Positions 33,615 to 47,182 of a stretch of 64,000 nt of DNA are shown here, in pieces. The notes under the pieces were generated by a model. The model saw nothing but the letters and a program-made list of their open reading frames with translations, ran no database searches and was not told the DNA's origin. The position numbers and the translations under genes were made by a program. Origin of the DNA: an uncultured Desulfatiglans sp. (GTDB lineage Bacteria; Desulfobacterota; DSM-4660; Desulfatiglandales; Desulfatiglandaceae); the NCBI GenBank assembly GCA_900498135.1, contig LR026961.1, positions 3,704,011 through 3,768,010 on the forward strand. The letters run 5' to 3'. Each line of letters opens with the position of its first letter. Within the stretch, counting starts at the first letter, position 1.

Positions 33615-34559
33615 CTAATCTACCTGCGGTCTGGGATAGAGTCCACCCCTTTCGACCAGTTCCGGAACCTTGTCTTCCCATTCGATGGCCATAATGTGGA
33701 ATCCGTGCACGCCCTCCACTTCCTTGAGGCGCTGGATGGCCTCGACGCAGATGTCGAGCCCTTCCTGGGGCTGCTTCTCCTTCGGGACGCCGCTCATGCG
33801 CTTGATGATCTCGTCGGGCACATCCATGCCCGGCACCCGGTTCTTCATGTACTTGGCCATGCCGGCCGATTTCATGGGGGTGAGGCCCGCCAGGATGTGG
33901 ACCTTTTCGTGAAGGCCCCGGTCCCGGACACCCTGCATCCATTTCTCGAACTTGTCGAGGTTGTAGATGCACTGCGTCTGGATGAACTCGGCGCCGGCGG
34001 CGACCTTCTTGGCCAAGCGCGGGACACGGATCTCGAAGGGGTCGGCGAAAGGGTTCGCCGCGGCCCCCACGAACATGCGGGGCGGACGCTTGATCTCGTC
34101 GCCGCCGAGGAACTTGCCTTCGTCGCGCATCCGGCGCACGGTCTGGATGAGCTGCATCGAGTCGATGTCGAAGACGTTCTGGCCCGTCGAGCAGTCCCCG
34201 AAGGTCTGGTGGTCGCCCGACAGGCAGAGCATATTGAAGATGTCGAAGGAGGCGGCCCCCAGGATGTCGCTCTGGAGGGCGATCCGGTTGCGGTCCCGCA
34301 CGACCATCTGCAGGATGGGCTCGAGGCCCATGAGCTTGATGTGGATGCAGGATGCCAGGCTGCACAGCCGCGTGACCGATGTCTGGTTGTCGGTGATGTT
34401 GATGGCGTCGACATGATCCTTGATCATCTCGGCCTTCCGGGTGATCGCCTCGGGATCGCTCCCGCGCGGGGGGCCGCATTCGGATGTGACGGCGAGATGC
34501 CCGGCTGCCAGGATCTTTTCCAACTTGCTGGGTGTCTTCAGGGTAGCCATTCCGCTCAT
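33615..34559 (-). CDS. metF: Methylenetetrahydrofolate reductase, MetF-type catalytic subunit
   Basis: Flavoprotein of 314 residues interconverting 5,10-methylene- and 5-methyl-tetrahydrofolate in the methyl branch of the reductive acetyl-CoA pathway. TIM-barrel landmarks: AVTSECGPPRGSDPEAITRK, DAINITDNQTSVTRLCSLAS, DRNRIALQSDILGAASFDIF, LCLSGDHQTFGDC, RMFVGAAANPFADP, AEFIQTQCIYNLDKFEKWM and HILAGLTPMKSAGMAKYM. The start ATG 34559 forms an ATGA overlap with the metV stop; a far longer open frame to 35294 is the shadow of metV. Like acetogen-type enzymes it lacks its own NAD(P)H-binding C-domain and probably receives electrons through MetV, MvhD and the long HdrA encoded upstream. Confidence 0.93.
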   Translation of the reverse strand: MSGMATLKTPSKLEKILAAGHLAVTSECGPPRGSDPEAITRKAEMIKDHVDAINITDNQTSVTRLCSLASCIHIKLMGLEPILQMVVRDRNRIALQSDILGAASFDIFNMLCLSGDHQTFGDCSTGQNVFDIDSMQLIQTVRRMRDEGKFLGGDEIKRPPRMFVGAAANPFADPFEIRVPRLAKKVAAGAEFIQTQCIYNLDKFEKWMQGVRDRGLHEKVHILAGLTPMKSAGMAKYMKNRVPGMDVPDEIIKRMSGVPKEKQPQEGLDICVEAIQRLKEVEGVHGFHIMAIEWEDKVPELVERGGLYPRPQVD

Positions 34560-35224
34560 AGTCTCACATCCTCCCTCACGACGGTTCTGGGGCCGCCGGC
34601 CCGGTCGGTCGACCAATCCTTGATGGGCGCAAGGATCTCGTAGTCGTCGAGGCGTCCGAGCTCCTTCAGGCGGTCGATGATCAGCTGCCAGGCGCAGGGG
34701 ACGTCCTTGCTGATCTCGCACTTCCCCTTGGACGACCCTCCGCAGGGGCCGTTCAGGAGCCGCTTGGCGCAGCGCGAGATGGGGCAGATCCCGGCGGTGC
34801 GGCCCAGGATGCACTGTCCGCAACCCTGGCAGCGTTCGCTCCAGACGCCGCGCTCCTCCGTGACGCCCATGAAGCAGGTGTTGACGCCCGGGTAGACCGG
34901 GGTCGAGAAGTACTTCTCCGCCATGAACTGAACGCCGACACCGCAGGCGATGGAGACGACGGCATCGTATTTGTCGATCACGTTCCGGATCTCCTCGAGG
35001 TACTCGTGGTCGCACTGGCGCTCGAGCGTGACCTCGTCGATCGTGACGTCCTTGCCCTGGTTCATGAAGTACATGCGCAGCGCGGAGGCGAGGACCCCGA
35101 CCTCCTTCTTCCCGCCCGCCTCGCAGACGGTGACGCACTCGTTGCAGCCCGCTACGAGAATGGATTGTTTGTCCTTCACGTAGTCGATGATCTCTTCGAT
35201 CGGTTTTCTTTCGGCGACAATCAT
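34556..35224 (-). CDS. metV: MetV-like partner of MetF (MTHFR C-terminal / zinc-Fe-S protein)
   Basis: A 222-residue partner subunit found with MetF in acetogens and sulfate reducers. N-terminal half: QSILVAGCNECVTVCEAGGK, then EVTLERQCDHEYLEEIRNV, and IACGVGVQFMAEKYFSTPVY. The C-terminal half is cysteine-rich: NTCFMGV, ERCQGCGQCILGRTAGICPI, SRCAKRLLNGPCGGSSKGKC, with EISKDVPCAW. The cysteines suit zinc and/or iron-sulfur sites that pass electrons to MetF. The four-base overlap with metF and equal strand indicate stoichiometric production. Known in the family as the second subunit of the MetFV complex; the mechanism of electron entry here is inferred. Confidence 0.9.
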   Translation of the reverse strand: MIVAERKPIEEIIDYVKDKQSILVAGCNECVTVCEAGGKKEVGVLASALRMYFMNQGKDVTIDEVTLERQCDHEYLEEIRNVIDKYDAVVSIACGVGVQFMAEKYFSTPVYPGVNTCFMGVTEERGVWSERCQGCGQCILGRTAGICPISRCAKRLLNGPCGGSSKGKCEISKDVPCAWQLIIDRLKELGRLDDYEILAPIKDWSTDRAGGPRTVVREDVRL

Positions 35225-35480: not shown

Positions 35481-35906
35481 TCAGGCGGCCTTCCTGGCGA
35501 GCTTGATCGGATTGGGGCCGAGGGCCTTGATCTTCTCCGTCATCTCGGTGGCGATCTCCGCGAAGCGGGGCCCCTCGCCGGAAGACAGGTTGTACATCTG
35601 CAGCCGCTCTCCGCCGATGCCGACGGCGTCGAGGATCTTCTGCGCCGCCTCCACCCGCCGGCGCGCCCGGAGGTTCCCGCGGATGAACCGGCAGTCCCCC
35701 TCCATGCAGCCGACGATGTAGACGCCGTCGGCGCCCTTCTCGAAGGCGTGCAGCAGGTGGATGATGTCCACCTTGCCGGTGCAGGGGACGCGGATGATGC
35801 GGATCGTCCCGGGGTACTGAAGCCTCATCGAACCTGCCAGGTCCGCGGCGGTGTACCCTCAGAAGTTGCAGGCAAATGCGACGATGATCGGTTCGAACTG
35901 TTCCAT
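35481..35906 (-). CDS. mvhD: MvhD-like hydrogenase/heterodisulfide reductase iron-sulfur subunit, probable selenoprotein
   Basis: Small [2Fe-2S] electron-transfer protein of 141 residues that couples HdrA to partner oxidoreductases. Reading starts at ATG 35906 (MEQFEPIIVAFACNF) and meets UGA at 35859-35861, then continues in the same frame as GYTAADLAGSMRLQYPGTIR, IIRVPCTGKVDIIHLLHAFE, GADGVYIVGCMEGDCRFIRG and NLRARRRVEAAQKIL. In MvhD the position after CN(W/F) is a conserved cluster cysteine, so the UGA is read as selenocysteine 16. A hairpin 15 bases after the UGA supports recoding. An ordinary gene caller would start at ATG 35828 and lose the N-terminus. It lies 207 bases after the HdrA gene and 257 bases before metV. 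Confidence 0.88.
35830..35861 (-). promoter_or_regulatory. Candidate bacterial SECIS element in mvhD
   Basis: Fourteen bases after the UGA (35859-35861) the mRNA can form GGACCT-GGC-AGGTTC (six pairs including one G-U, three-base loop) at 35830-35844. Position and size are those of SelB-recognised hairpins. Loop sequence is short, so the exact fold needs computing. Confidence 0.5.
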
Positions 35907-36112: not shown

Positions 36113-39100
36113 CTAAAGCACCCCCTCCAGCAGGGCGTCCACCTTGCTGATGAGCTGTTCGTCCTCGTACCAGTTGAGCTCGATCGCCTTGGCCGGGCAC
36201 TCGGCCGCGCAGATGCCGCAGCCGTGGCAGAGGGCCTCGTCGATCTCGCTCGCCCCGAGCTCGTTGATGCGCGGCACGCCGTACGGGCAGGAGCGCACGC
36301 AGATGAGGCAGGAGGCGCACTTGTCCTGGTCCACCCGGGCCGTGACCGCCGAGAGGGTGATCTCGGTCTGGGAGAGGAACGTGGTGGCGCGCGAAGCGGC
36401 CGCCAGCGCCTGGGCGATGGTCTCGGAGACGAGCTTCGGGCTGTGTGCGGTGCCGCAGACGAAGACCCCGTCGCTCGCCATCTCGACCGGGCGGAGCTTG
36501 ACGTGCGCTTCCAGGAAGTACCCTTCGGCGTTCCGCGGCACCTTCATGATCGTCGCGAGTTCCTCGGTGTCCTGGGCGCGCATGCCGGCGCTGAGGGCCA
36601 CGAGGTCGGCGGCGACCTGGATGTCGCGCTGCAGGACGTGGTCGGTGAAGGTGACCGTGAGCCCGCCGTCCGAGCTTTCCACCCGGGGCGGGTTTTCCGG
36701 CTCGAAGCGGGCGAAGATCACGCCCATCTCGCGGGCCTGGCGGTAGTAGTCTTCGAGGAGCCCGTACATCCGCATGTCGCGGTAGAGGATGAAGACATCG
36801 GTGGCCGGGTTCATCTCCTTGATGTGGATGGCGTTCTTCACGGCGCTCTGGCAGCAGATCCTGGAGCAGTTGGGGTTCTCCTCGTTGCGGGATCCGACGC
36901 ACTGGATCATGACCACGCGCTCGACGCCGTCGAGGCCCGTTTCCTCGAGCCGCCGGCCGAGCTCGATCTGCGTGAGCACGCCCTCGTTCTCCCCGTAGAG
37001 GAATTCCTTCGGCACGTACTCCGTCGCGCCCGTGGCGAGGATCACCACGCCGTGGTCGATCTTCCGCTCGTACATACCGGGGCCGACCAGGACCTCCGTC
37101 GTGAAGTTCCCCTTGAAGCCGCTGAAGTCGACCACCAGGCTGTTGGTCAGGACCTGGATCTTCTCGTTCTGGTCCACCCGCTCGATCAGCTTGTCGATGT
37201 AGGCGCGGATGTCGGCGCCTTCGATGGTGGTGGTGAGCTGCCGTGAGAGGCCGCCAAGCTGCGGCTCCTTTTCGACGATCACCGTCTCGAACCCCTGGTC
37301 GGCCAGGCCGAGGGCCGCGTTCATGCCGGCCACGCCGCCGCCGACGATGAGGGCGCGCTTGTTGACCGGGATCCGCTTCTCGTGGAGCGGGTGCAGGAAG
37401 CCGGCCCGGGCGACCGCCATGCGGACGAGGTCCTTGGCCTTGACCGTCGCGGCCTCGTGGTCGCCCGCGTGCACCCAGGAGTCCTGGTCGCGGATGTTGG
37501 CCATCTCGAAAAGATACTTGTTCAGGCCGCAGGCCTGGAGGGTCTCCTGGAAGAGCGGCTCGTGGGTCCTCGGCGAACAGGAGGCGACCACGACGCGGTT
37601 CAGGTTGTGCTCCTTGATGACTTCCTTGATCTTGTCCTGGGTGTCCTGGGAACAGGTGAAGAGGTTGTTGTCGGCAAAGGCCACGTGGGGCAGCCCCGCC
37701 GCGTACTCGGTCACCGCCGGGACGTCCACCACGCCGGCGATGTTGATCCCGCAGTTGCAGACGAAGACGCCGATGCGCGGCTCCTGCCCGGCTACGTCGA
37801 TCTCGTCCGGGATTTCCAGGACCTTCGTCTCGAGCCAGCGCGCCGCGTCGAGCTTGGAACCGGCCGCGCAGGCCGCCGCGCTCGCCTCGACGACCGAGGT
37901 GGGGATGTCCTTCGGGCCCTGGAAGATGCCGCAGGCATAGACCCCCGGCCGCGAGGTGCTGACGGGCCTGAAGGGGTCGGTGGCGGCGAAGTGGTAGTGG
38001 TCGAGGTCGACCCCGACCCGCTCGGCGAGCCGGATCGTTTCGGTGTTGATCTGGAGGCCGACCGAAAGGACCACGATATCGAAGGCCTCGCCGTGGATGA
38101 CGCCGTTTTCATCCGAGTACTCAATCTGCAGGTCATCGGTCTCGGGGATCGGTGTGATACTGTGGACCCGTGAGCGCACGAACCGGACGCCGTGCTCGCG
38201 CTCCGCCCGGTTGTAGTACTTCTCGTAGTCCTTCCCGTAGGTGCGCATGTCCATGAAGAAGATCGCCGTGTCGAGTGGTTCCTTGCTGTGGTCCTTGGCG
38301 ATCACGGCCTCCTTGATGGCGTACATGCAGCAGACGGCCGAGCAGTAGCCGTTCCCGCACGTGTGCGGGTCGCGCGAGCCCACGCACTGGAGCCAGGCGA
38401 TCTTCCGCGGCTCCTTCTGGTCCGACGGCCGCTGGAGGTGCCCCATCGTGGGGCCGGAGGCGCTCAGGATCCGCTCGAACTCGCCGCTCGTGAGGATGTT
38501 CGGGTGCGACTTGTAGTGGTAGAGTTCCTCGTAAGGGGAGGGGTCGAACATGTCGTTGCCGGGGCAGAGGATGACGGACCCCACGGTGATCTCCCGCTCG
38601 AGGGCCATCTGTTCATGGTCGATCGCCTGGGCGAGGCAGGCCTTCACACACTGGTAGCACTCGCTGCAGATCCCGCACTTGAGGCAGCGCTGGGCCTCCT
38701 CCCGGACCTCCTCCTCGCTGAAGCCGAGGTTGATCTCCCCGAAGTTCCCGCGCCGCTCTTGGACGGGCAGGTGGCGCATCTCGACCCGCGGGCGGAAGGG
38801 CTCCCCCTTGGCGTCGGGCTTCTCGTAGGACCAGTCCTTTTCGCGCCCCTCGCGGAGGTCGACGTTGTTCAGATACCGGTCGATGCTCTCGGCCGCGGTC
38901 TTGCCACATTCGACCGCCTCCACGACCGATTTCGGGCCGTAGAAGACGTCGCCGCCCGCAAAGACCCACGGGGTCGGTGTCTGGAGCGTCACCGGGTCGG
39001 CCGTGAGGCCCCCGCGCGCGCCGACCGTGAGCCCTTCCTTCTCGGCGTAGGAGAGATCCGCCGCCTGGCCGATGGCCACGATGACCGTGTCGGCCTCGAG

Positions 39101-40552
39101 GGTGGTCAGATCCGCCTCGTCGTACTGCGGGCGGAAGGCGCCCTTTTCGTCGAAGACGGCGGTGCAGCGCTTGAACTCGAGCCCGGCGAGCCGCCCGTCC
39201 TTCTCGATGAAGGCGCGCGGGCCGAGGCTGTTGACGATCTTGACCCCCTCCTCGAGCGCCTCTTCGATCTCGTAGTCCCAGGCCGGCATCTCCTCGCGCT
39301 TCTCGAGGCAGGCGAGGGTGACGTCCTTTCCGCCTTTGCGCAGAGCAGTCAGGGCTACGTCCACGGCCACATTGCCGCCCCCCACCACGATGACGCGCTC
39401 GCCCACCGCGACCGGCCGTTCGAGCGCCGCGTCACGCAGAAAGTCGACGCCCTTCAGCACCCCGGGGAGGTCCTCGCCCGGCACGTTGAGCCCGCGGCTC
39501 AGGTGAAGGCCCGTGCCGATGAAGACGGCCTTGTACCCGTCAGCCTCGAGCCCTTCGAGCGTGACGTCCACGCCGAAGGCGACCCCGGTCCGGATCTCGA
39601 CCCCCATGGCCTCGACGATGCCGATCTCGCGGGCCAGGATGTCGCGGGGCAGCCGGTAGGCCGGGATGCCGACGGCCATCATGCCGCCCGCCACCGGGAG
39701 CTTTTCGAAGACCGTGACGGTGTATCCCTTCAGCGCCAGGAAATAGGCCGCCGCCAGGCCGGCCGGACCGGCGCCGATGACCGCCACCTTTTCGTCCCGC
39801 TTCTCCTCCGGGAGCGACGGCACATAGGGCTCATCACCGCTCCGGTCGACGTCGGCCAGGAACCGGTGAAGGTACTGGATCGAGATCGGTTCGTCCACGT
39901 CCCCCCGCGTGCAGATCCCCTCGCACGGGTGGTGGCAAACGCGCCCGCAGACCGCGGGGAAGGGGTGCGCCTCCATGAAGAGCTCGAGCGCCTCACGGTA
40001 TTTCCCCTGGTTGATGAGGGCGATGTAGCCCTGGATGCTGACGTGCGCGGGGCAGGTGGCCTTGCAGGGGGCGGTCCCGCGTTTGCTGATGGCGTAGCCG
40101 CCCGGGATGGCCTGGGGGTATTTCTTGTAGGTGGCTTTGCGTTTGCTGAGCCCGAGGTTGTACTCGTCGTCCACTTCGATCGGGCAGACCTTGGTGCACT
40201 CCCCGCAGCTCGTGCACTTCGAGAGGTCCACGTAGCGGGGCTCCAGCCTCACGCGGGCCTGGAACAGCCCCTCGTCCCCTTCGAGGTCCATCAGTTCCGC
40301 GTTGGTCAACAACTCGATGTTCAGGTGCCGGCCGACCTCGACCAGCTTGGGTGAGATAATTCACATCGCGCAGTCATTGGTGGGAAATGTCTTGTCCAAC
40401 TGGGACATGAGCCCGCCGATGGCGGACGATTTTTCCACCAGATAGACATAGTACCCCGAGTTGGCGAGGTCGAGGGCGGACTGCATCCCGGCGATGCCGC
40501 CCCCCACCACCATGACCGATCCCGATACCTTCTTTGCCTGATTCTCCGTCAT
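36113..40552 (-). CDS. hdrA: Long HdrA (HdrL-like): HdrA with inserted GltD/NfnB module plus second HdrA; probable selenoprotein
   Basis: Flavin/Fe-S protein of about 1,479 residues. It starts at ATG 40552 ([20 protein letters not shown]). UGA at 40361-40363 (residue 64) stands in the HdrA motif [19 protein letters not shown], where relatives have Cys, so it is read as selenocysteine. Order of modules: HdrA FAD part (1-110); ferredoxin [12 protein letters not shown] (about 113); GltD/NfnB-like NAD(P)H module (about 155-600) with [23 protein letters not shown] and [13 protein letters not shown]; ferredoxin-like [13 protein letters not shown] (about 622) and the rest of the first HdrA; then a second HdrA from [13 protein letters not shown] (about 927) with FAD motif [13 protein letters not shown] (about 1070) and two C-terminal [4Fe-4S] motifs. 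I infer flavin-based electron bifurcation or confurcation between NAD(P)H, ferredoxin and MetFV/MvhD. Confidence 0.92.
40327..40363 (-). promoter_or_regulatory. Candidate bacterial SECIS element in hdrA
   Basis: Starting 15 bases after the UGA (40361-40363), GCTGG (40342-40346) pairs with CCGGC (40327-40331) around the loop TCGAGGTCGG. The loop includes GGTC, similar to the GGUC apical loop recognised by SelB in formate dehydrogenase mRNAs. Confidence 0.55.
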
Positions 40553-40569: not shown

Positions 40570-41454
40570 TTAGAGCCTGGCGATGTCCAGGACCTGGGGG
40601 AGCTTGTCCTCCCACCCGATGGTTGAAATCAAGGTTCCGGCAAGGCCCATCTCCCTGAAGGCGGCTACGAGTTCGCCGGCGATCTTCGTGCACTGGTAGG
40701 CCTTGTCGCCGGCCTTCTGGATCGACTGGATGGTGTCGGGCGGAATGGAGATGTGGCGGATGTTGCGGTCGATGTAGCGCGCCATGCCGGCGGATTTGAG
40801 CAGCAGGACGGTCGGGATGACGGCCACGCGCGAGGTGTCGATGCGCTTCAGGACGGCCTTCAGCCGGTCGGGCTCGAAGATCGGGGTGGTGACGATGTAG
40901 CGCACGCCGAGGTCGATCTTCTTCTGGAGCTCGGCCAGCTCCACCTCGAGGGCGCCGCCCGCCGCCCCGGCGTTGAAGGTGGTGCCCACGATGAAGGCCG
41001 GGGGAGGGCCCTGCAGTTCGATGCCGGCCATGTCCTTGCCTCCCCCCAGGGTCTGGAGCATGCCGAGGAGTTCGAGCAGGTCGAGGTCGTTGACCGCCCG
41101 GGCCTGGTGGTGGTCGCCGAAGGTGATGTCCTCCCCCTGCACCGCCATGACGGATTGGATCCCGAGAGCGCCCGCCCCGAGCATGTCGGCCTGGAGCGCC
41201 AGGCGGTTCCGGTCGCGGCAGCAGGCCTGCAGGACCGTGTCGAACCCGTGCCCCTGCAGGAAGGCGCAGCCCGCGAGCGAACTCGCCTTCATGACGGCGT
41301 TGGCCATCTCGGGGACCACGAGGGCGTCCACGCGGCCTTTGACCAGACCGGCGTTCTTCAGCAGCATCGAAAAATCCGACCCCTTCGGCGGCTCCAGTTC
41401 GCCCAGAACGATAAACTCACCGGCTTTGATCTTTGCCTCCAGTTTCATGCTCAT
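40570..41454 (-). CDS. MetF-family protein, second homologue in the Hdr operon
   Basis: A 294-residue TIM-barrel protein related to methylenetetrahydrofolate reductase: [114 protein letters not shown] and [19 protein letters not shown]. It differs clearly from the MetF encoded at 34 kb and lacks some of its folate-pocket motifs (for example GDHQTFGD becomes [10 protein letters not shown]). It may act on another one-carbon carrier, or be a regulatory or folate-binding subunit. A GGAGGAATC ribosome site precedes the ATG. Its stop lies only 17 bases before the HdrA start, so the two are strongly co-expressed. Confidence 0.85.
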
Positions 41455-41469
41455 GATTCCTCCCAGGAA

Positions 41470-41847
41470 TTAATGTGGCGGCCTGTTCATGGCGTTAGCG
41501 ATCGCCATTTCGAGGTCCTGAATGCCAAACGACTTGATGTGGTAAAAAAAGATCCGCTGTTGGCGCACCTTGCTCTCGAACTCCGGCGTGTTGGTCTCGG
41601 CGCAGATGATGATCGGGAGGTTCTCTGCCATGCCCTTGATGATCGAGATGAAGGCGCAGTCTTCCTCCAGCAGGGATGCGTCGAGGACCAGCGCGTCCAC
41701 GCGCTGGCTCTGGATGGTCAGGAGCGTCTCCTTGAGGGTGCCGGCATGCACCCCCTCGAGTCCGTTGTCATCCATGAAAGGCCTCAGCTCCGGGGCCATG
41801 ACGCTTTGCGGTTCGGCGATGAGAACGGTCTTGCGCGATGCATCCAT
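41470..41847 (-). CDS. Pseudo-receiver / atypical response-regulator protein
   Basis: A 125-residue CheY-like domain at the head of the Hdr/Met operon. The phospho-acceptor Asp region is VDALVLDASLLEEDC and the Lys is in FYHIKSFGIQD. The usual N-terminal acidic pair is reduced to IAEPQS (only one acidic residue), so metal-assisted phosphorylation may be weak or lost. Start ATG 41847 (MDASRKTVLIAEPQ) is chosen because TAAGGT lies 9 bases before it; the frame extends to 41910 without support. It is followed after 15 bases by the second MetF homologue. A sigma-54 promoter-like sequence lies about 120 bases upstream. Confidence 0.72.
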   Translation of the reverse strand: MDASRKTVLIAEPQSVMAPELRPFMDDNGLEGVHAGTLKETLLTIQSQRVDALVLDASLLEEDCAFISIIKGMAENLPIIICAETNTPEFESKVRQQRIFFYHIKSFGIQDLEMAIANAMNRPPH

Positions 41848-42204
41848 AAGCTGTGACCTTATCGGGTTGTCTTGCTGTCCACCGTTCAGCCCTTCTCTCC
41901 GGGGCCGCATCTCTGAAACGGGATTCAGCGAACCAAGCGCCGGATCCCCGGATGCGCCTGAGTAAGAAGCAACAATGATGCCAGAATGGCTTAGTGATGG
42001 ATATTACGAGATAAAGAGCCGTTCACGCGAGGCACGGGAAGGGGATAGGGCGGGCCGGATGGGGCAATTTGTAGCACTGCGCGGGGCGATGATTTCTAAC
42101 ATATTGACATAACAAGGCTTATAAAAATGCGGCATAATGCCCCGTCTGTTACCTTGTGCCCCAATCGTTTTGATGAGATGCCTCGCTGTGATTGAGGGCC
42201 TCCT
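41848..42204. other. Control region between NtrC-type activator and Hdr/Met operon
   Basis: About 357 bases. It holds the minus-strand sigma-54 promoter candidate (41968-41983). The distal part (42000-42150) is where activator-binding sites would be expected; no clear palindromic enhancer was recognised. A TTGACA at 42113 on the plus strand lacks a matching -10. Confidence 0.45.
41968..41983 (-). promoter_or_regulatory. Sigma-54 promoter-like sequence for the Hdr/Met operon
   Basis: On the minus strand the sequence is TGGCATCATTGTTGCT, matching the -24/-12 consensus TGGCACRNNNNTTGCW at 10 of 12 specified positions, with GG and GC correctly spaced. The predicted start lies about 110 bases before the pseudo-receiver gene, with an NtrC-family activator gene immediately upstream. 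Confidence 0.6.
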
Positions 42205-43569
42205 CTATTCGAGCCCGTATTTCTTGATCTTGAGGCCGAGCGTCTTGCGGTTGATGCCGAGGATCTCGGCGGCCTTGATCTTTTTTCCGCGGGTGAGGCG
42301 CAGGACGAAGGCGATGTACTTCTTTTCGAGCTCCTCGAGGGTGAAGGGCTCCTCCGAGAACATCTGGAATTCGCCCTGGCGCTGGGAGATGAAGGCGGGG
42401 AGGTCGCGCGCGCGAATGACCGGGGTGTCTTCCAGGATCAGGACCCGCTCGATGGTGTGCTCGAGCTCCCGGACGTTGCCGGGCCAGGCGTACTCCTGGA
42501 GGATCTCCATCGCCTCGGCGGAGACCTCGGGGAGGGCGCGCTTCAGCTTGCGGCAGTATTTTTCGAGAAAGTGGTGGATGAGGAGCGGGATGTCGTCGGT
42601 GCGCTCCCTGAGCGGCGGGAGCCTGAGCGGCACGACGCTCAGGCGGTAGAAGAGGTCCTCCCGGAAGGTCCCGGCGGCGACGCTTTCGGCCAGGTTCCGG
42701 TTGCTGGCCGAGAGGATCCGGATGTCGAGGCGCGTCTTCTTCTGGTCCCCGACCTTCATGAACTCGCGCTCCTGGATGACGCGGAGGAGCTTAGCCTGGA
42801 TCTTCAGGCTCAGGTTGGAGACCTCGTCGAAGAAGAAGGTCCCGTGGTTGGCGAGTTCGAAGAGCCCGTGCTTGGTCTGGATGGCGCCGGTGAAGGACCC
42901 CTTGACGTGCCCGAAGAGCTCGCTTTCGAGCAGCGTCTCCACGAGCGACGAGCAGTCGACGGCCACGAACTCACGGTCTTTCCTGAGGCTCTTGGCGTGG
43001 ATTGCCCGCGCGACGAGCTCCTTGCCGGTACCGCTCTCGCCGGTGATGAGGACCGTGCTGTCGGTCGGCGCCACGCGCAGGATCTTCTCGAAGATCTTCT
43101 TCATCGGGCGGCTTCGGCCGATGATGAGGCTGTCCTCCGAGTCGATCTGGAGGCCCTTTTCCCCGAGCGCCCCGGCCTGTCCCGCCTCGGCCTCCGGAGG
43201 CCAGACGATCTTCTTGAGCGCGGCGTCGAGGTCGTCCAGGCGGAAGGGCTTGACGAGATAGTCGAGCGCCCCGAGCTTCATCGCGTGGACGGCGGTGTCG
43301 ATCGTCGGGTAGCCGGTGATCATGATGACGGGGAGCTCCGGGTGGGCGGTGCGGATGCGTTTGAGGAGTTCGACCCCGTCCATGTCCGGTATCCGGATGT
43401 CGAGGAGCGCCAGGTCGAAGTGCGTCCGGGCGAGCATCTGCAGGGCCTCTTCCGCCGCTGCGACGGCGACGGCCTCGAGCCCGCGGCTCTGCAAAGCCCG
43501 CTTGATGCCGCTCCGGACGACCGCCTCGTCGTCGACGACCAGGACGCGGCGGATGGAATCATAGGTCAT
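42205..43569 (-). CDS. NtrC-family sigma-54-dependent response regulator
   Basis: Transcription activator of 454 residues. Receiver domain (residues 5-120) has VLVVDDEAVV, phospho-acceptor in ALLDIRIPDMDGVEL and Lys in DYLVKPFRLDD. The AAA+ domain has Walker A GESGTGKE, the sigma-54 contact loop ESELFGHVKGSFTGA (GSFTGA in place of the usual GAFTGA), Walker B GTFFFDEVSNLSL and the arginine-finger region. A Fis-type HTH closes the protein ([20 protein letters not shown]). Start ATG 43569 matches the receiver start; an ORF 11 codons longer is unsupported. It is encoded downstream of two histidine kinases on the same strand and faces the sigma-54 promoter of the Hdr/Met operon, its likely target. 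Confidence 0.94.
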   Translation of the reverse strand: MTYDSIRRVLVVDDEAVVRSGIKRALQSRGLEAVAVAAAEEALQMLARTHFDLALLDIRIPDMDGVELLKRIRTAHPELPVIMITGYPTIDTAVHAMKLGALDYLVKPFRLDDLDAALKKIVWPPEAEAGQAGALGEKGLQIDSEDSLIIGRSRPMKKIFEKILRVAPTDSTVLITGESGTGKELVARAIHAKSLRKDREFVAVDCSSLVETLLESELFGHVKGSFTGAIQTKHGLFELANHGTFFFDEVSNLSLKIQAKLLRVIQEREFMKVGDQKKTRLDIRILSASNRNLAESVAAGTFREDLFYRLSVVPLRLPPLRERTDDIPLLIHHFLEKYCRKLKRALPEVSAEAMEILQEYAWPGNVRELEHTIERVLILEDTPVIRARDLPAFISQRQGEFQMFSEEPFTLEELEKKYIAFVLRLTRGKKIKAAEILGINRKTLGLKIKKYGLE

Positions 43570-43650
43570 CGGGGCTCCTCTTCGCTTCGGCTCGGGAAAC
43601 ACGCGTTCCCATTCAGGACTGAAAAAACTCGAGGTCCGGGCGGGCTGCGC

Positions 43651-45126
43651 TCAGGGCGCGATGGCGGGCAGGAGGATCCGGAAGGTGGTCCCGCCGTCCG
43701 GGACGCTTTCGACATCGATGCTCCCGTGGTGCGCCTCGATCACCCCCTTCACGATGGCCAGCCCCAGCCCGGTGCCCATGACCTGCCTCGTCTTGGGGTT
43801 CTTGACCCGGTAGAACTTGTCGAAGATCTTGGGCAGCTCCTCCGGCGCGATGCCGATGCCCCGGTCCTGAACCTTGATTTCCACGTACTCCCCTTGACCC
43901 TCGGCGGTGATGGTCACCTCGCCCCCGTCGGGCGAGTAGTTGATCGCGTTGCTGATGAGGTTCGTCATGACCTCGTCCATGTGCTTCGGATCGGCCGAGA
44001 TGGGCGCGAGGTTCCGGGCGGTGAAGCGGACCGTCACGCCTTGTTCGCCGGCACGCGGCTCCATGAGCGCGACCGTCTCCTCGATGATCTTCTGGAGGTC
44101 GGTCGGGACGCGGGTCTGCACGGTGTGGGCGGACTCGATCTTGGCGATGTCCAGGAGGTCGTTGATCAGGTCCAGCAGGCCGTCGATCTTCTTCATCCCC
44201 CGCGCGATGAAGTCCTTCTGCTTCGGGTCGAGCGGGCCGGCAAGCCCCTCCAGCATGACGCTCTGCTGCTGCCGGATCGAGACGAGCGGACTGCGCAGCT
44301 CGTGGGCGACCATGTGCACGAAATCCGTCTTCATTGCATCGAGCTGCTTGAAGGGCGTGATGTCTTCGAGCACCGTCACGGTCCCCACGACCCCGTCTTC
44401 GGGGCCGAGGGCCGGTGCGGAGATGGCCCGCAGAAACCGCCGCCCGGCCTGGATCTCCCGGGCGACCGTGGCATCCGGGGCGGACTCGCCCGACTGGATC
44501 TTCTTGAGTGTCCCGATCAGGTCCTCGTCCTGCAGGAAGGCCTTGACGGAGGCGGGGAAGGCCGTGTCGGGTCCGAGTTCCAGGAGCCGCATCAGCGCCG
44601 GGTTGTGGAGTACCACCTCGAGGTTCCGATTGGTCACCATGATGCCGTTCGCCAGGCAGTTGATGATCGTCCGCAGCCGGCTCTTCTCGAGGCTCAGGTC
44701 GTAGAGGTTGCGGCTGTTCTCCTCCTGGAAGCGCTTCGCCTGCTGCTCGAGGCGCCGCTTTTCCGCGGCCCGGGCGATGGTCAGGAGGAAGGGGTCGATC
44801 TGGAACGGCTTCGTGATGAAGTCGTAGGCGCCCTTCTTCATGCAGTTCACGGCCGTGTCGACCGTGCCGTGGCCCGTGATGATGATGACCGGGATGTCGG
44901 CGTAGTGCTCTTTCAGGATCTCGAGCAGCGTCTCCCCGTCCATGACAGGCATCTTCAGGTCGAGCAGGATCACGTCGACGGGCTGTTTCTGCAGGATGTC
45001 GAGGGCGACCTGGCCGTTCTCCGCCCCGGTGACCGTGTAGCCGCGGGTTGAAAGCACGCGGTTGCAGCCGTCCCGGATGGTCTTCTCGTCGTCTACCACC
45101 AGAATGTCGGGTTTGTCATCCGTCAT
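43651..45126 (-). CDS. Hybrid protein: N-terminal receiver + PAS + histidine kinase
   Basis: A 491-residue signalling protein with the receiver in front of the kinase. Residues 1-125: receiver with VVDDEKTIRDG, phospho-acceptor in VILLDLKMPVMDGETL and Lys in FITKPFQID. A coiled-coil linker and PAS-like segment (LRTIINCLANGIMVTNRNLE) follow. The HisKA box is FVHMVAHELRSPLVSIRQQQ and the HATPase boxes are NLISNAINYSPDGG, VQDRGIGIAPEEL and GTGLGLAIVKGVIEAHHG. No membrane segment is visible, so it is cytoplasmic. It overlaps the upstream kinase gene by 11 bases, and lies 81 bases before the NtrC-type activator gene, so the three genes form one signalling unit. Confidence 0.92.
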   Translation of the reverse strand: MTDDKPDILVVDDEKTIRDGCNRVLSTRGYTVTGAENGQVALDILQKQPVDVILLDLKMPVMDGETLLEILKEHYADIPVIIITGHGTVDTAVNCMKKGAYDFITKPFQIDPFLLTIARAAEKRRLEQQAKRFQEENSRNLYDLSLEKSRLRTIINCLANGIMVTNRNLEVVLHNPALMRLLELGPDTAFPASVKAFLQDEDLIGTLKKIQSGESAPDATVAREIQAGRRFLRAISAPALGPEDGVVGTVTVLEDITPFKQLDAMKTDFVHMVAHELRSPLVSIRQQQSVMLEGLAGPLDPKQKDFIARGMKKIDGLLDLINDLLDIAKIESAHTVQTRVPTDLQKIIEETVALMEPRAGEQGVTVRFTARNLAPISADPKHMDEVMTNLISNAINYSPDGGEVTITAEGQGEYVEIKVQDRGIGIAPEELPKIFDKFYRVKNPKTRQVMGTGLGLAIVKGVIEAHHGSIDVESVPDGGTTFRILLPAIAP

Positions 45127-47182
45127 CGTCCAGTCCAATGAATACGGGTTTTTCCTCTTCCCTGCACGAGTAGTCGAGCGGGAGTTCGATCCTGAAGGTC
45201 GTGCCGCCTCCCGGCGGGCAGTCGAAGGAGATCTGGCCGCCGTGGAGCTTGATGATGTTCTGGGAGATGCTCAGGCCCAGGCCCGTGCCTTTTCCCACGG
45301 GTTTCGTGCTGAAGAAGATGTCGAAGACCTTGTCGCGCAGCTCCTTCGGGATGCCCGGCCCGGTGTCGGAGACCTCGATGATGAACCGGCAAGCGCCCTC
45401 TTCGTAGCGCGCCTTGATCCCCAGGTGGCCCTTGTATTCCATGGCGTCGGCGGCGTTGATGAAGAGGTTGGTGAAGACCTGCTGGAGCTGCCCCATGTCC
45501 CCCAGCATATCGGGCATCTCGGGTTCGATCTCCTTCGAGACGCGGATGTTCTGGAAGGTCGCCTGGTGGATCAGGAGGTTCAGGGTCTTGCTGATGAGCT
45601 GATCGAGGCTGAACGAGGCGACCTTGCCGACGGACTGCCGGCTGAACTCCAGGAGCTCCGCCACGATGTGCTTGCAGCGCAAGGTCTGGTCGATGATCTC
45701 CTGGATGTCCTTCAGGTGCTCCTCGTGGTCCTGGAGCGCTTCCTTCAGCAGTTCGGCGTAGATGAGGATCCCGGAGAGCGGGTTGTTGATCTCGTGGGCG
45801 ACCCCGGCCGCCATCCGGCCGACCGAGGCGATACGCTCGGACTGGACGAGGTGGACATGGGCCTCCTCGAGATCGCGGCGCATCTGGAGCACCTCGCGCA
45901 TGTCGGTAAAGACGCCGACGCTGCCGATGTCCTTCCCGTCGATCGTAATGAGCGAGGCGGTGAGGGTGATCGGGATCTTCTCCCCGTCCTTCGCCGTGAT
46001 CTGCATGCTCGTCGGGTTGAGCTTTCCGGGCGGTCCGTAGAGGCCGCTGCGCATCTTCTTCATGTTCGCCCGCGCGATGTCCATGTCGTAGAAATTGCTG
46101 AGATGGCCGTGGTTCATGATCTCCTCGGCCGAAAAGCCGGTCAGGCGCTCCATCCCCTCGTTGAAGATGAGGACGTTCCCCTTCGTGTCGACCACCACGA
46201 TGCCATCGACGGTGCTCTGGATGACGTTCTGCAGAAAGATGTTGCTCTTTTCGACCTCCTTCTCGAGCCGGATGCGGTCCGTGACGTCCCGCGACGCCTC
46301 CAGAAGCTGTACGGTCTCGCCCTTTTCGTTCAGGATGGGGGAGACGGTCACCACCTCGTAGCGCGTCTCCCCGGTTTCGTCCTCGAACTCGTGGATCGTG
46401 CTGATGGTCTCCCCGGTCTTCTGCACCTCCTCGAGGTAGCACGCCCGCCCGCATTCCTTGCAGGGCTGGGTGAGCCCGTAACGCAGCTCGTAGCAGTGCT
46501 TGCCCAGGATGTCCTGGTAGTCGAGGCGGTTCTCGCGCAGGAAGGTCTTGTTGACCGTGTGGATCGTCATGTCGGTGTTGACGACCATGATGCGGTAGGG
46601 GAGGGAGTCGAGGATGGTCTGGGTGTCTTGCACGGTGCCCGGCGTGCAGATATCACGGGGCTCCGCCGCGTGCTCCCGGATGAGCGGCTGGATCAGGAGG
46701 CTGCAGATCTTGCGGTCGATCAGCTGTACCCCGGCGGGCTTGCAGGCCTCAACGGCGGCCTCGGCCTCCGGCCGGTCTCCTGTCACCAGCAGCGCGTCCA
46801 GCCCCGGCCGTTCGCACAGGTCCTCGTAGCGCTCCGTGGTGTAAATCCCCATCGACCGGGCAAGCTTCATGCCCGCCGCCTTCGGGTCGGGGTCGGCCAC
46901 GCCGATCACCTTGACCGCCAGCCGCTGCCTCGGCCCCTCGTAAAGGCCTGTCAGGATCTCGCAGCTGCGCTCTCCGCCGCCCGCAAGCCCCACACGGAGC
47001 ATCTCCGACGAAGGCCCTCGGCCGCCACCGGGCTTGGCCGGCGGCATCACGCGCTTGTGGGGATCGGGTCTCAAGGCATCGGGGTCTTTCTCCAGCACGT
47101 GGCAGGTCTCGTCCCCGGCGGCGCACCTCCGCTCGATGTAGAGGATTCTTCTCTGGAAGGGCATCTCAGGCAAGGCGGTCAC
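45116..47182 (-). CDS. PAS histidine kinase with N-terminal Rossmann-like domain
   Basis: A soluble 688-residue kinase. Residues about 60-170 look like a nucleotide-binding Rossmann fold: EMLRVGLAGGGERSCEILTG, VKVIGVADPDPKAAGMKLAR, MGIYTTERYEDLCERPGLDA and LLVTGDRPEAEAAVEACKPA, the pattern of Gfo/Idh-type oxidoreductases. Two PAS domains follow (ILDSLPYRIMVVNTDMTIHT with cysteines CKECGRACYLEEV; and VIQSTVDGIVVVDTKGNVLI), then HisKA GVAHEINNPLSGILIYAELL and HATPase TNLFINAADAMEYKGH, VSDTGPGIP and GTGLGLSISQNIIKLHGG. The first PAS has four clustered cysteines, as in redox/Fe-S sensing PAS domains. It probably senses redox or NAD(P)H state for the downstream activator. Confidence 0.9.
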   Translation of the reverse strand: MTALPEMPFQRRILYIERRCAAGDETCHVLEKDPDALRPDPHKRVMPPAKPGGGRGPSSEMLRVGLAGGGERSCEILTGLYEGPRQRLAVKVIGVADPDPKAAGMKLARSMGIYTTERYEDLCERPGLDALLVTGDRPEAEAAVEACKPAGVQLIDRKICSLLIQPLIREHAAEPRDICTPGTVQDTQTILDSLPYRIMVVNTDMTIHTVNKTFLRENRLDYQDILGKHCYELRYGLTQPCKECGRACYLEEVQKTGETISTIHEFEDETGETRYEVVTVSPILNEKGETVQLLEASRDVTDRIRLEKEVEKSNIFLQNVIQSTVDGIVVVDTKGNVLIFNEGMERLTGFSAEEIMNHGHLSNFYDMDIARANMKKMRSGLYGPPGKLNPTSMQITAKDGEKIPITLTASLITIDGKDIGSVGVFTDMREVLQMRRDLEEAHVHLVQSERIASVGRMAAGVAHEINNPLSGILIYAELLKEALQDHEEHLKDIQEIIDQTLRCKHIVAELLEFSRQSVGKVASFSLDQLISKTLNLLIHQATFQNIRVSKEIEPEMPDMLGDMGQLQQVFTNLFINAADAMEYKGHLGIKARYEEGACRFIIEVSDTGPGIPKELRDKVFDIFFSTKPVGKGTGLGLSISQNIIKLHGGQISFDCPPGGGTTFRIELPLDYSCREEEKPVFIGLDDDG

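Follow-up and report, generated by a model that had tools for sequence, protein, structure and literature searches.

The in-frame UGA codon at positions 40363 to 40361 of the window (the whole 64,000-nt stretch of DNA analyzed here) is very probably decoded as selenocysteine (Sec), a reading that draws on sequence comparisons and would yield a full-length, 1479-residue HdrA-GltD-HdrA fusion. Sec-HdrA and Sec-FrhD/MvhD proteins with CxxU motifs have been catalogued (PMC1794560, PMC13188914, as excerpted); Sec at the CxxU site of HdrA is already published, and the gene described here, hdrL, is a further case rather than the first.

The hdrL gene and its neighborhood

With the UGA counted as a residue, the hdrL frame is open from the ATG at 40552 to the TAG at 36113 (1479 aa), and codon 64 is its sole internal TGA. 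This confirmed the claim of a preliminary description that a UGA at 40361-40363 interrupts an otherwise single HdrA frame, which lies on the minus strand and is open on both sides of the codon. The features of the locus are as follows.

33615-34559, minus strand: metF-like methylene-THF reductase gene (PF02219)
34556-35224, minus strand: metV-like gene (PF12225, methylene-THF reductase C-terminal domain)
35481-35906, minus strand: mvhD/FlpD gene, 141 aa, with UGA as predicted Sec at codon 16 and UGA also as stop (PF02662, E 1.5e-49)
35830-35846, minus strand: SECIS-like hairpin after the mvhD UGA, conserved GCGGACCTGGCAGGTTC (conservation, folding)
35859-35861, minus strand: in-frame Sec-type UGA of mvhD, codon 16, in CNFUGY (CxxU) (translation, tblastn across loci)
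36113-40552, minus strand: hdrL, a fusion of HdrA (module 1), a GltD-like insert and HdrA (module 2) (ATG start, TAG stop, profile matches)
40327-40346, minus strand: SECIS-like hairpin of 8 bp with loop AGGU (folding), overlapping the 20-nt core CTGGTCGAGGTCGGCCGGCA but shifted by one base
40361-40363, minus strand: in-frame UGA, codon 64, predicted Sec in the motif C61-x-x-U64 (aligns with the Cys at 5odc_A position 197)
40570-41454, minus strand: second, shorter MTHFR-like gene, 294 aa, directly upstream of hdrL (PF02219)
41470-41910, minus strand: upstream gene of 146 aa with a weak likeness to response-regulator receivers (27.9 bits, under the 30.2 set by Pfam as cut-off)

The hdrL product matched NF040770 (HdrA2) in five stretches (E 1.3e-286; 952.8 bits, below the whole-protein cut-off of 1100) and the solved HdrA chain 5odc_A over residues 1-150 (E 4.6e-51) and 920-1479 (E 1.5e-126), and it also matched GltD-type models (residues ~156-660), Pyr_redox_2, and 4Fe-4S domains. 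Module 1 (residues about 1-155) is an HdrA piece without the N-terminal domain, and the FAD motif VVGGGIAG occupies its residues 15-22. A GltD-like NAD(P)H/FAD insert follows (residues about 156-660), then further HdrA; the second HdrA module starts, around residue 926, with an N-terminal domain. The preliminary description spoke of a long HdrA; the protein is an HdrA-GltD-HdrA fusion and not a plain HdrA. Its expectation that annotators would truncate the protein and lose the first FAD half-site was borne out by a mechanical ORF list made with translation table 11, in which a 1399-aa ORF starts at the TTG at 40312 and so lacks VVGGGIAG. Gene prediction with UGA as a stop would break hdrL at codon 64 and drop this N-terminal FAD motif, and the adjoining mvhD would likewise lose its CxxU motif.

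The order of genes around hdrL recurred in relatives. Downstream mvhD, metV, and metF were present in 17 of 18 relatives of one set and in 37 of 53 named loci, and the GltD insert was present in all 18 relatives of the same set and in 49 of 53 named loci (counting, in both sets, loci with 6300 nt or more downstream). The short MTHFR-like gene lay upstream in 17 of 18 relatives of one set and in 25 of 72 named loci (all with at least 1000 nt upstream). None of the hdrL-cluster ORFs that were tested matched HdrB or HdrC. Just upstream of the cluster, an NtrC-like sigma-54 regulator gene and two histidine-kinase genes occupy 42205-47182 on the minus strand; their products are candidate regulators of the hdrL cluster.

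Codon 64 and the conserved-cysteine column

Residue 64 fell on position 197 of 5odc_A in a gapless alignment running 11 to 144. The solved HdrA chains 5odc, 8rvu/8rvv, and 7bkb all have Cys in this column, and 9sfi_A has an X at its position 197, which we infer to be Sec. Among 78 distinct sites with the motif, 56 had TGA and 22 had TGC or TGT, in a chosen set whose ratio is not a prevalence: it combines the loci kept by our searches with 20 Cys and 20 UGA places picked among the matches listed, and 7 of the 56 UGA sites, the window's among them, belong to the genome that contains the window. From named genomes, we took the best 80 of 535 loci, labeled mostly Desulfobacteraceae, Desulfobacterales, or Deltaproteobacteria, which gave 81 sites, 79 with TGA and 2 with Cys codons; this set overlaps that of the other relatives, with at least four pairs being the same contigs by length. 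It includes two cultured relatives, Desulfocicer vacuolatum (L158) and Desulfatibacillum alkenivorans (L189), that share the gene and its UGA. The UGA thus stands, as had been proposed from the window alone, at a conserved-cysteine position, the column being Cys in the solved chains and Cys or UGA in relatives.

These counts bear on the possibility that the UGA truly terminates translation or marks a pseudogene, in which case either the downstream ORF would be translated from a start inside the gene or the gene would be dead. While the 1399-aa ORF from TTG 40312 fits this reading, the same UGA recurs at the 56 distinct sites and at 79 of the 81 sites in the named-genome set above, protein conservation runs on either side of it, and codons +6 to +11 are frozen in UGA genes only (see below). 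We therefore consider a stop or lesion highly improbable. A sequencing or assembly error for TGC or TGT would agree with the Cys codons that relatives carry at this site (22 of the 78 distinct sites in the chosen set), but the TGA and a linked downstream element are common to independent genomes, and TGA is found at 8 of 24 HdrA-like places in a single genome, the window's included, which makes such an error more improbable still.

A conserved element downstream of the UGA codon

The exact 20-nt sequence CTGGTCGAGGTCGGCCGGCA, separated from the UGA by 15 intervening nt, was present at 55 of 56 distinct UGA sites and at none of the 22 Cys-codon sites, even though every one of the six whole codons within it has synonyms. 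The best 80 of 535 named-genome loci gave a similar picture, with exact matches at 73 of 79 TGA sites and at neither of the 2 Cys sites; the six variants comprised one U-G to C-G change (L191), four elements ending in GGCCGT rather than GGCCGG, and one with an altered loop (L203). Cys sites that encode LVEVGRH still lacked the exact element, with 18 of 20 matching bases at L099 and 15 of 20 at L112.

Two UGA genes used the same codon for the same amino acid with a probability of 0.987 at codons +6 to +11 (a range picked after the alignment was seen) and 0.468 elsewhere. In Cys genes, the same synonymous identity was 0.371 at codons +6 to +11 and 0.432 elsewhere. For these values, rows 95% alike were merged, leaving 51 UGA and 19 Cys rows, and "elsewhere" excludes codons 0 to +12 and columns in which fewer than half of the rows share the residue. 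Recent common descent does not account for the codon identity of the UGA genes, given that codons to either side of the element have diverged in these genes. The near-invariance of CTGGTCGAGGTCGGCCGGCA also means that covariation can hardly prove the pairs of the hairpin.

In bacterial SECIS elements, the hairpin lies shortly 3′ of the UGA and its apical loop contains G or GU, as in E. coli fdhF, whose loop is AGGUCU. The hdrL hairpin has these features, lying shortly 3′ of the UGA with the loop AGGU, and we regard it as a putative bacterial SECIS element. Its first paired base is the 15th nt past the UGA; the hairpin described earlier, given there as 5 bp with a GGTC-containing loop, is longer than that, with a stem of 8 bp and an AGGU tetraloop. 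Over 36 nt, the core stem was the minimum-energy fold at 46 of 56 UGA sites versus 1 of 22 Cys sites; the other 10 UGA sites, including the distant paralogue L029, had another minimum-energy fold. Rfam gave no match over the window at the gathering threshold or around the hairpin by E-value.

The stability of the hairpin is ordinary, with 153 of 1468 36-nt windows and 411 of 1466 42-nt windows of the gene being as stable, and it was dropped as evidence because equally stable folds are too common in the gene. Compared with 200 shuffles, the hairpin had a z of −2.8 at 36 nt (1 as stable), −1.85 at 42 nt (9 as stable), and −1.11 at 57 nt (32 as stable). The values were −0.26 at 91 nt (83 as stable) and +0.34 at 51 nt (122 as stable), two lengths at which the hairpin is absent from the predicted fold, the 51-nt stretch clipping it. 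The shuffle result depends on window length; what exceeds chance is the nucleotide conservation in UGA genes only. Folding for a SelB-type SECIS, as suggested beforehand, yielded a SECIS-like hairpin with nucleotide-level constraint in UGA genes and none in Cys genes.

Separately, we observed that the HdrA gene at L099 (relative G015), which has the Cys codon TGT, is the one noted above with 18 of the 20 bases of the UGA-gene element; this near-element is possibly a relic of a Sec-to-Cys change.

Selenocysteine machinery and HdrA paralogues in the genome

The genome is a single contig of 4,801,105 bp and contains tRNA-Sec with anticodon UCA (71.7 bits), selB (386.8 bits), selA (624.9 bits), and selD (369.4 bits), the last with an in-frame UGA of its own.

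3059355-3060272 of the own genome, minus strand: selD (L018) with a UGA codon in GSGUASK (profile match)

The machinery on which the earlier Sec claim depended is accordingly complete for selA, selB, selD, and tRNA-Sec. In bacteria, SelA and SelD charge tRNA-Sec, and SelB binds the hairpin after the UGA and delivers the tRNA. By this route, SelA and SelD would charge the tRNA-Sec of this organism, and SelB would bind the hairpin just past the hdrL UGA and bring in the charged tRNA. The Cys/UGA column, the hairpin constraint specific to UGA genes, and the presence of tRNA-Sec, selA, selB, and selD together support reading the UGA as Sec.

UGA is also an ordinary stop here, with both mvhD and metV ending in it, and the one tRNA-Trp seen in the three loci scanned has the anticodon CCA, with UCA belonging to tRNA-Sec. 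Both observations argue against a genome-wide reassignment of UGA, e.g., to Trp or Gly, for which we found no support and whose probability we regard as negligible.

The pattern UGA-N15-CTGGTCGAGGTCGGCCGGCA occurred seven times in the 4.8-Mb genome, each time within an HdrA match containing a single TGA, and its reversed control did not occur; an identical pair accounts for two of the seven. Given that the 20-nt element is nearly invariant, a plain pattern search easily finds the Sec-HdrA genes of these bacteria. Altogether, 8 of the 24 HdrA-like places in the genome, the window's included, carry an in-frame TGA, and the selenoproteome of this bacterium may therefore be large. L029 (4417898-4418314), a distant HdrA paralogue, has a UGA at the same column followed by a different, 7-bp hairpin with the loop GGTC. 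It is also the exception among the nine strongest HdrA matches in the genome: each of the other eight is accompanied by a weaker one on its own strand, no more than about 3.3 kb away.

The mvhD gene and its UGA codon

We compared MvhD codon 16 by tblastn across 100 HdrA-type loci (L074-L093 and L134-L213, of which L093 is the window's own locus and a few are shorter HdrAs without GltD). The codon was TGA in 71 loci and Cys in 10, and 19 had no MvhD match; 18 of these 19 have less than 4.6 kb downstream, and L146 has 5.0 kb. The sequence GCGGACCTGGCAGG was held by 70 of the 71 UGA-mvhD copies versus none of the 10 Cys copies. Apart from L197, the loci with Cys in MvhD keep UGA at the HdrA site; therefore, the Sec residues of HdrA and MvhD are not strictly coupled.

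The window's own genome contains 12 MvhD-like places, 3 of which have UGA at codon 16 (L214, the window's own copy, and L218 and L219, which are identical there). The latter two belong to two oppositely oriented UGA-HdrA plus UGA-MvhD copies (L027/L028 and L218/L219, at ~1.00 Mb on the minus strand and ~2.60 Mb on the plus strand) that are identical over the site stretch; each HdrA copy also contains a single N, in the same spot close to the UGA.

Proposed role of residue 64

Conservation within the fusion was assessed in 77 rows, which include the window's own copy and 72 distinct others, with 23 of the 100 loci left out as incomplete or as shorter HdrAs. In the N-terminal domain of module 2, Cys 932, 934, 967, and 992 were present in all 77 rows, and residues 1105-1129, the module-2 site region, had no Cys in 76 of 77 rows (the exception being L212). 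In the hdrL product, module 1 carries the putative ligand residue but lacks an N-terminal domain, while in module 2 the N-terminal domain is present and Cys is missing from the site that matches residue 64.

Residue 64 could be Sec and yet act in a redox-active selenol/thiol pair (C61-x-x-U64) instead of as an Fe-S ligand; in favor of this are the CxxU arrangement, well known from redox-active proteins as a classical motif, and the presence of Cys at position 61 in all 77 rows. Against this stand the conserved N-terminal-domain cysteines of module 2 and the excerpted account of a crystallized archaeal complex (M. wolfeii is named), in which Cys197 from one HdrA is a ligand to the N-terminal Fe-S cluster of its partner HdrA (PMC9012536). 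We consider the redox pair rather unlikely. By its number and family, we infer that this Cys197 is position 197 of 5odc_A, the residue with which Sec64 aligns. The same excerpts state that tandem or fused HdrAs have Cys197 and the N-terminal domain in complementary fashion and that the HdrA of the Moorella MetFV complex is such a complementary fusion (PMC9012536).

Given that the two hdrL modules are complementary in the Cys197 site and the N-terminal domain, Sec64 probably ligates the module-2 cluster. It would complete a selenolate-ligated [4Fe-4S] cluster of module 2, either within one chain or across a dimer. By analogy, our best guess for the hdrL complex is an Hdr-type methylene-THF reductase; the Sec64-ligated cluster would sit in the electron path of this probably bifurcating or confurcating enzyme, and NAD(P)H would feed it at the GltD insert. 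Extending the proposal to Desulfobacterota HdrA-GltD-HdrA fusions in general, with somewhat less than even confidence, we suggest from the sequences that the module-1 Sec may be the selenolate ligand completing the module-2 [4Fe-4S] cluster, forming an internal Fe-Se bond between modules that may tune one bifurcation branch, with MvhD adding a second Sec to the complex. The open-licence literature searched, as excerpted, yielded no statement of a Sec ligand to an HdrA cluster, which is weak evidence of absence. If Sec does bridge the two HdrA modules as a cluster ligand, its effect on flavin-based bifurcation would be testable by Sec-to-Cys exchange.

Comparison with described systems

The Sec-HdrAs of bacteria and Methanococcales share with hdrL the family, the CxxU motif, and a Sec FrhD/MvhD neighbor in the excerpts available (PMC1794560, PMC13188914, PMC11097638). 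Methanogen HdrA is described as usually about 650 aa (PMC9012536), whereas hdrL encodes a long HdrA-GltD-HdrA fusion beside metV and metF. According to the excerpted text of PMC1794560, the selenoprotein genes of archaea yielded no SECIS of the bacterial type. The excerpt of a 2025 paper notes that Methanocaldococcus hdrA looks partial because its Sec codon is read as a stop in gene prediction (PMC12054007).

Among sulfate reducers, HdrL1 and HdrL3 of Desulfobacterium autotrophicum HRM2 are described as Hdr/glutamate-synthase fusion selenoproteins followed by mvhD, a likeness by description, and hdrL fits the HdrL naming that those authors apply to such fusions; in HRM2, dsrABC follow HdrL1 and mvhD, whereas metV and metF follow mvhD here (PMC2702500, in the part consulted). 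Desulfococcus multivorans, a sulfate reducer of the Desulfobacteraceae, is likewise similar by description, with Sec-HdrA and Sec-MvhD that both have a UGA plus SECIS (PMC5109826, in excerpt).

For Moorella thermoacetica, the excerpts of PMC9430772 describe an Hdr-type methylene-THF reductase whose HdrA (162.8 kDa in Moorella), like the hdrL product, has extra TrxR-like and Fd domains, with a GltD insert ahead of the C-terminal part of HdrA. The paper itself contains no word beginning with "selen." For Moorella, a table published in 2006 gives a single Sec-HdrA and a single Sec-FrhD (PMC1794560, as excerpted). The mvhD-metV-metF neighbors are common to hdrL and to the Moorella and Thermacetogenium phaeum clusters (PMC9430772, PMC6895022, in the parts available), and the hdrL cluster resembles the T. 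phaeum hdrA-mvhD-metVF cluster, which is described as being without hdrBC (PMC6895022). The window has the Moorella-type arrangement, an HdrA with a GltD insert beside mvhD, metV, and metF.
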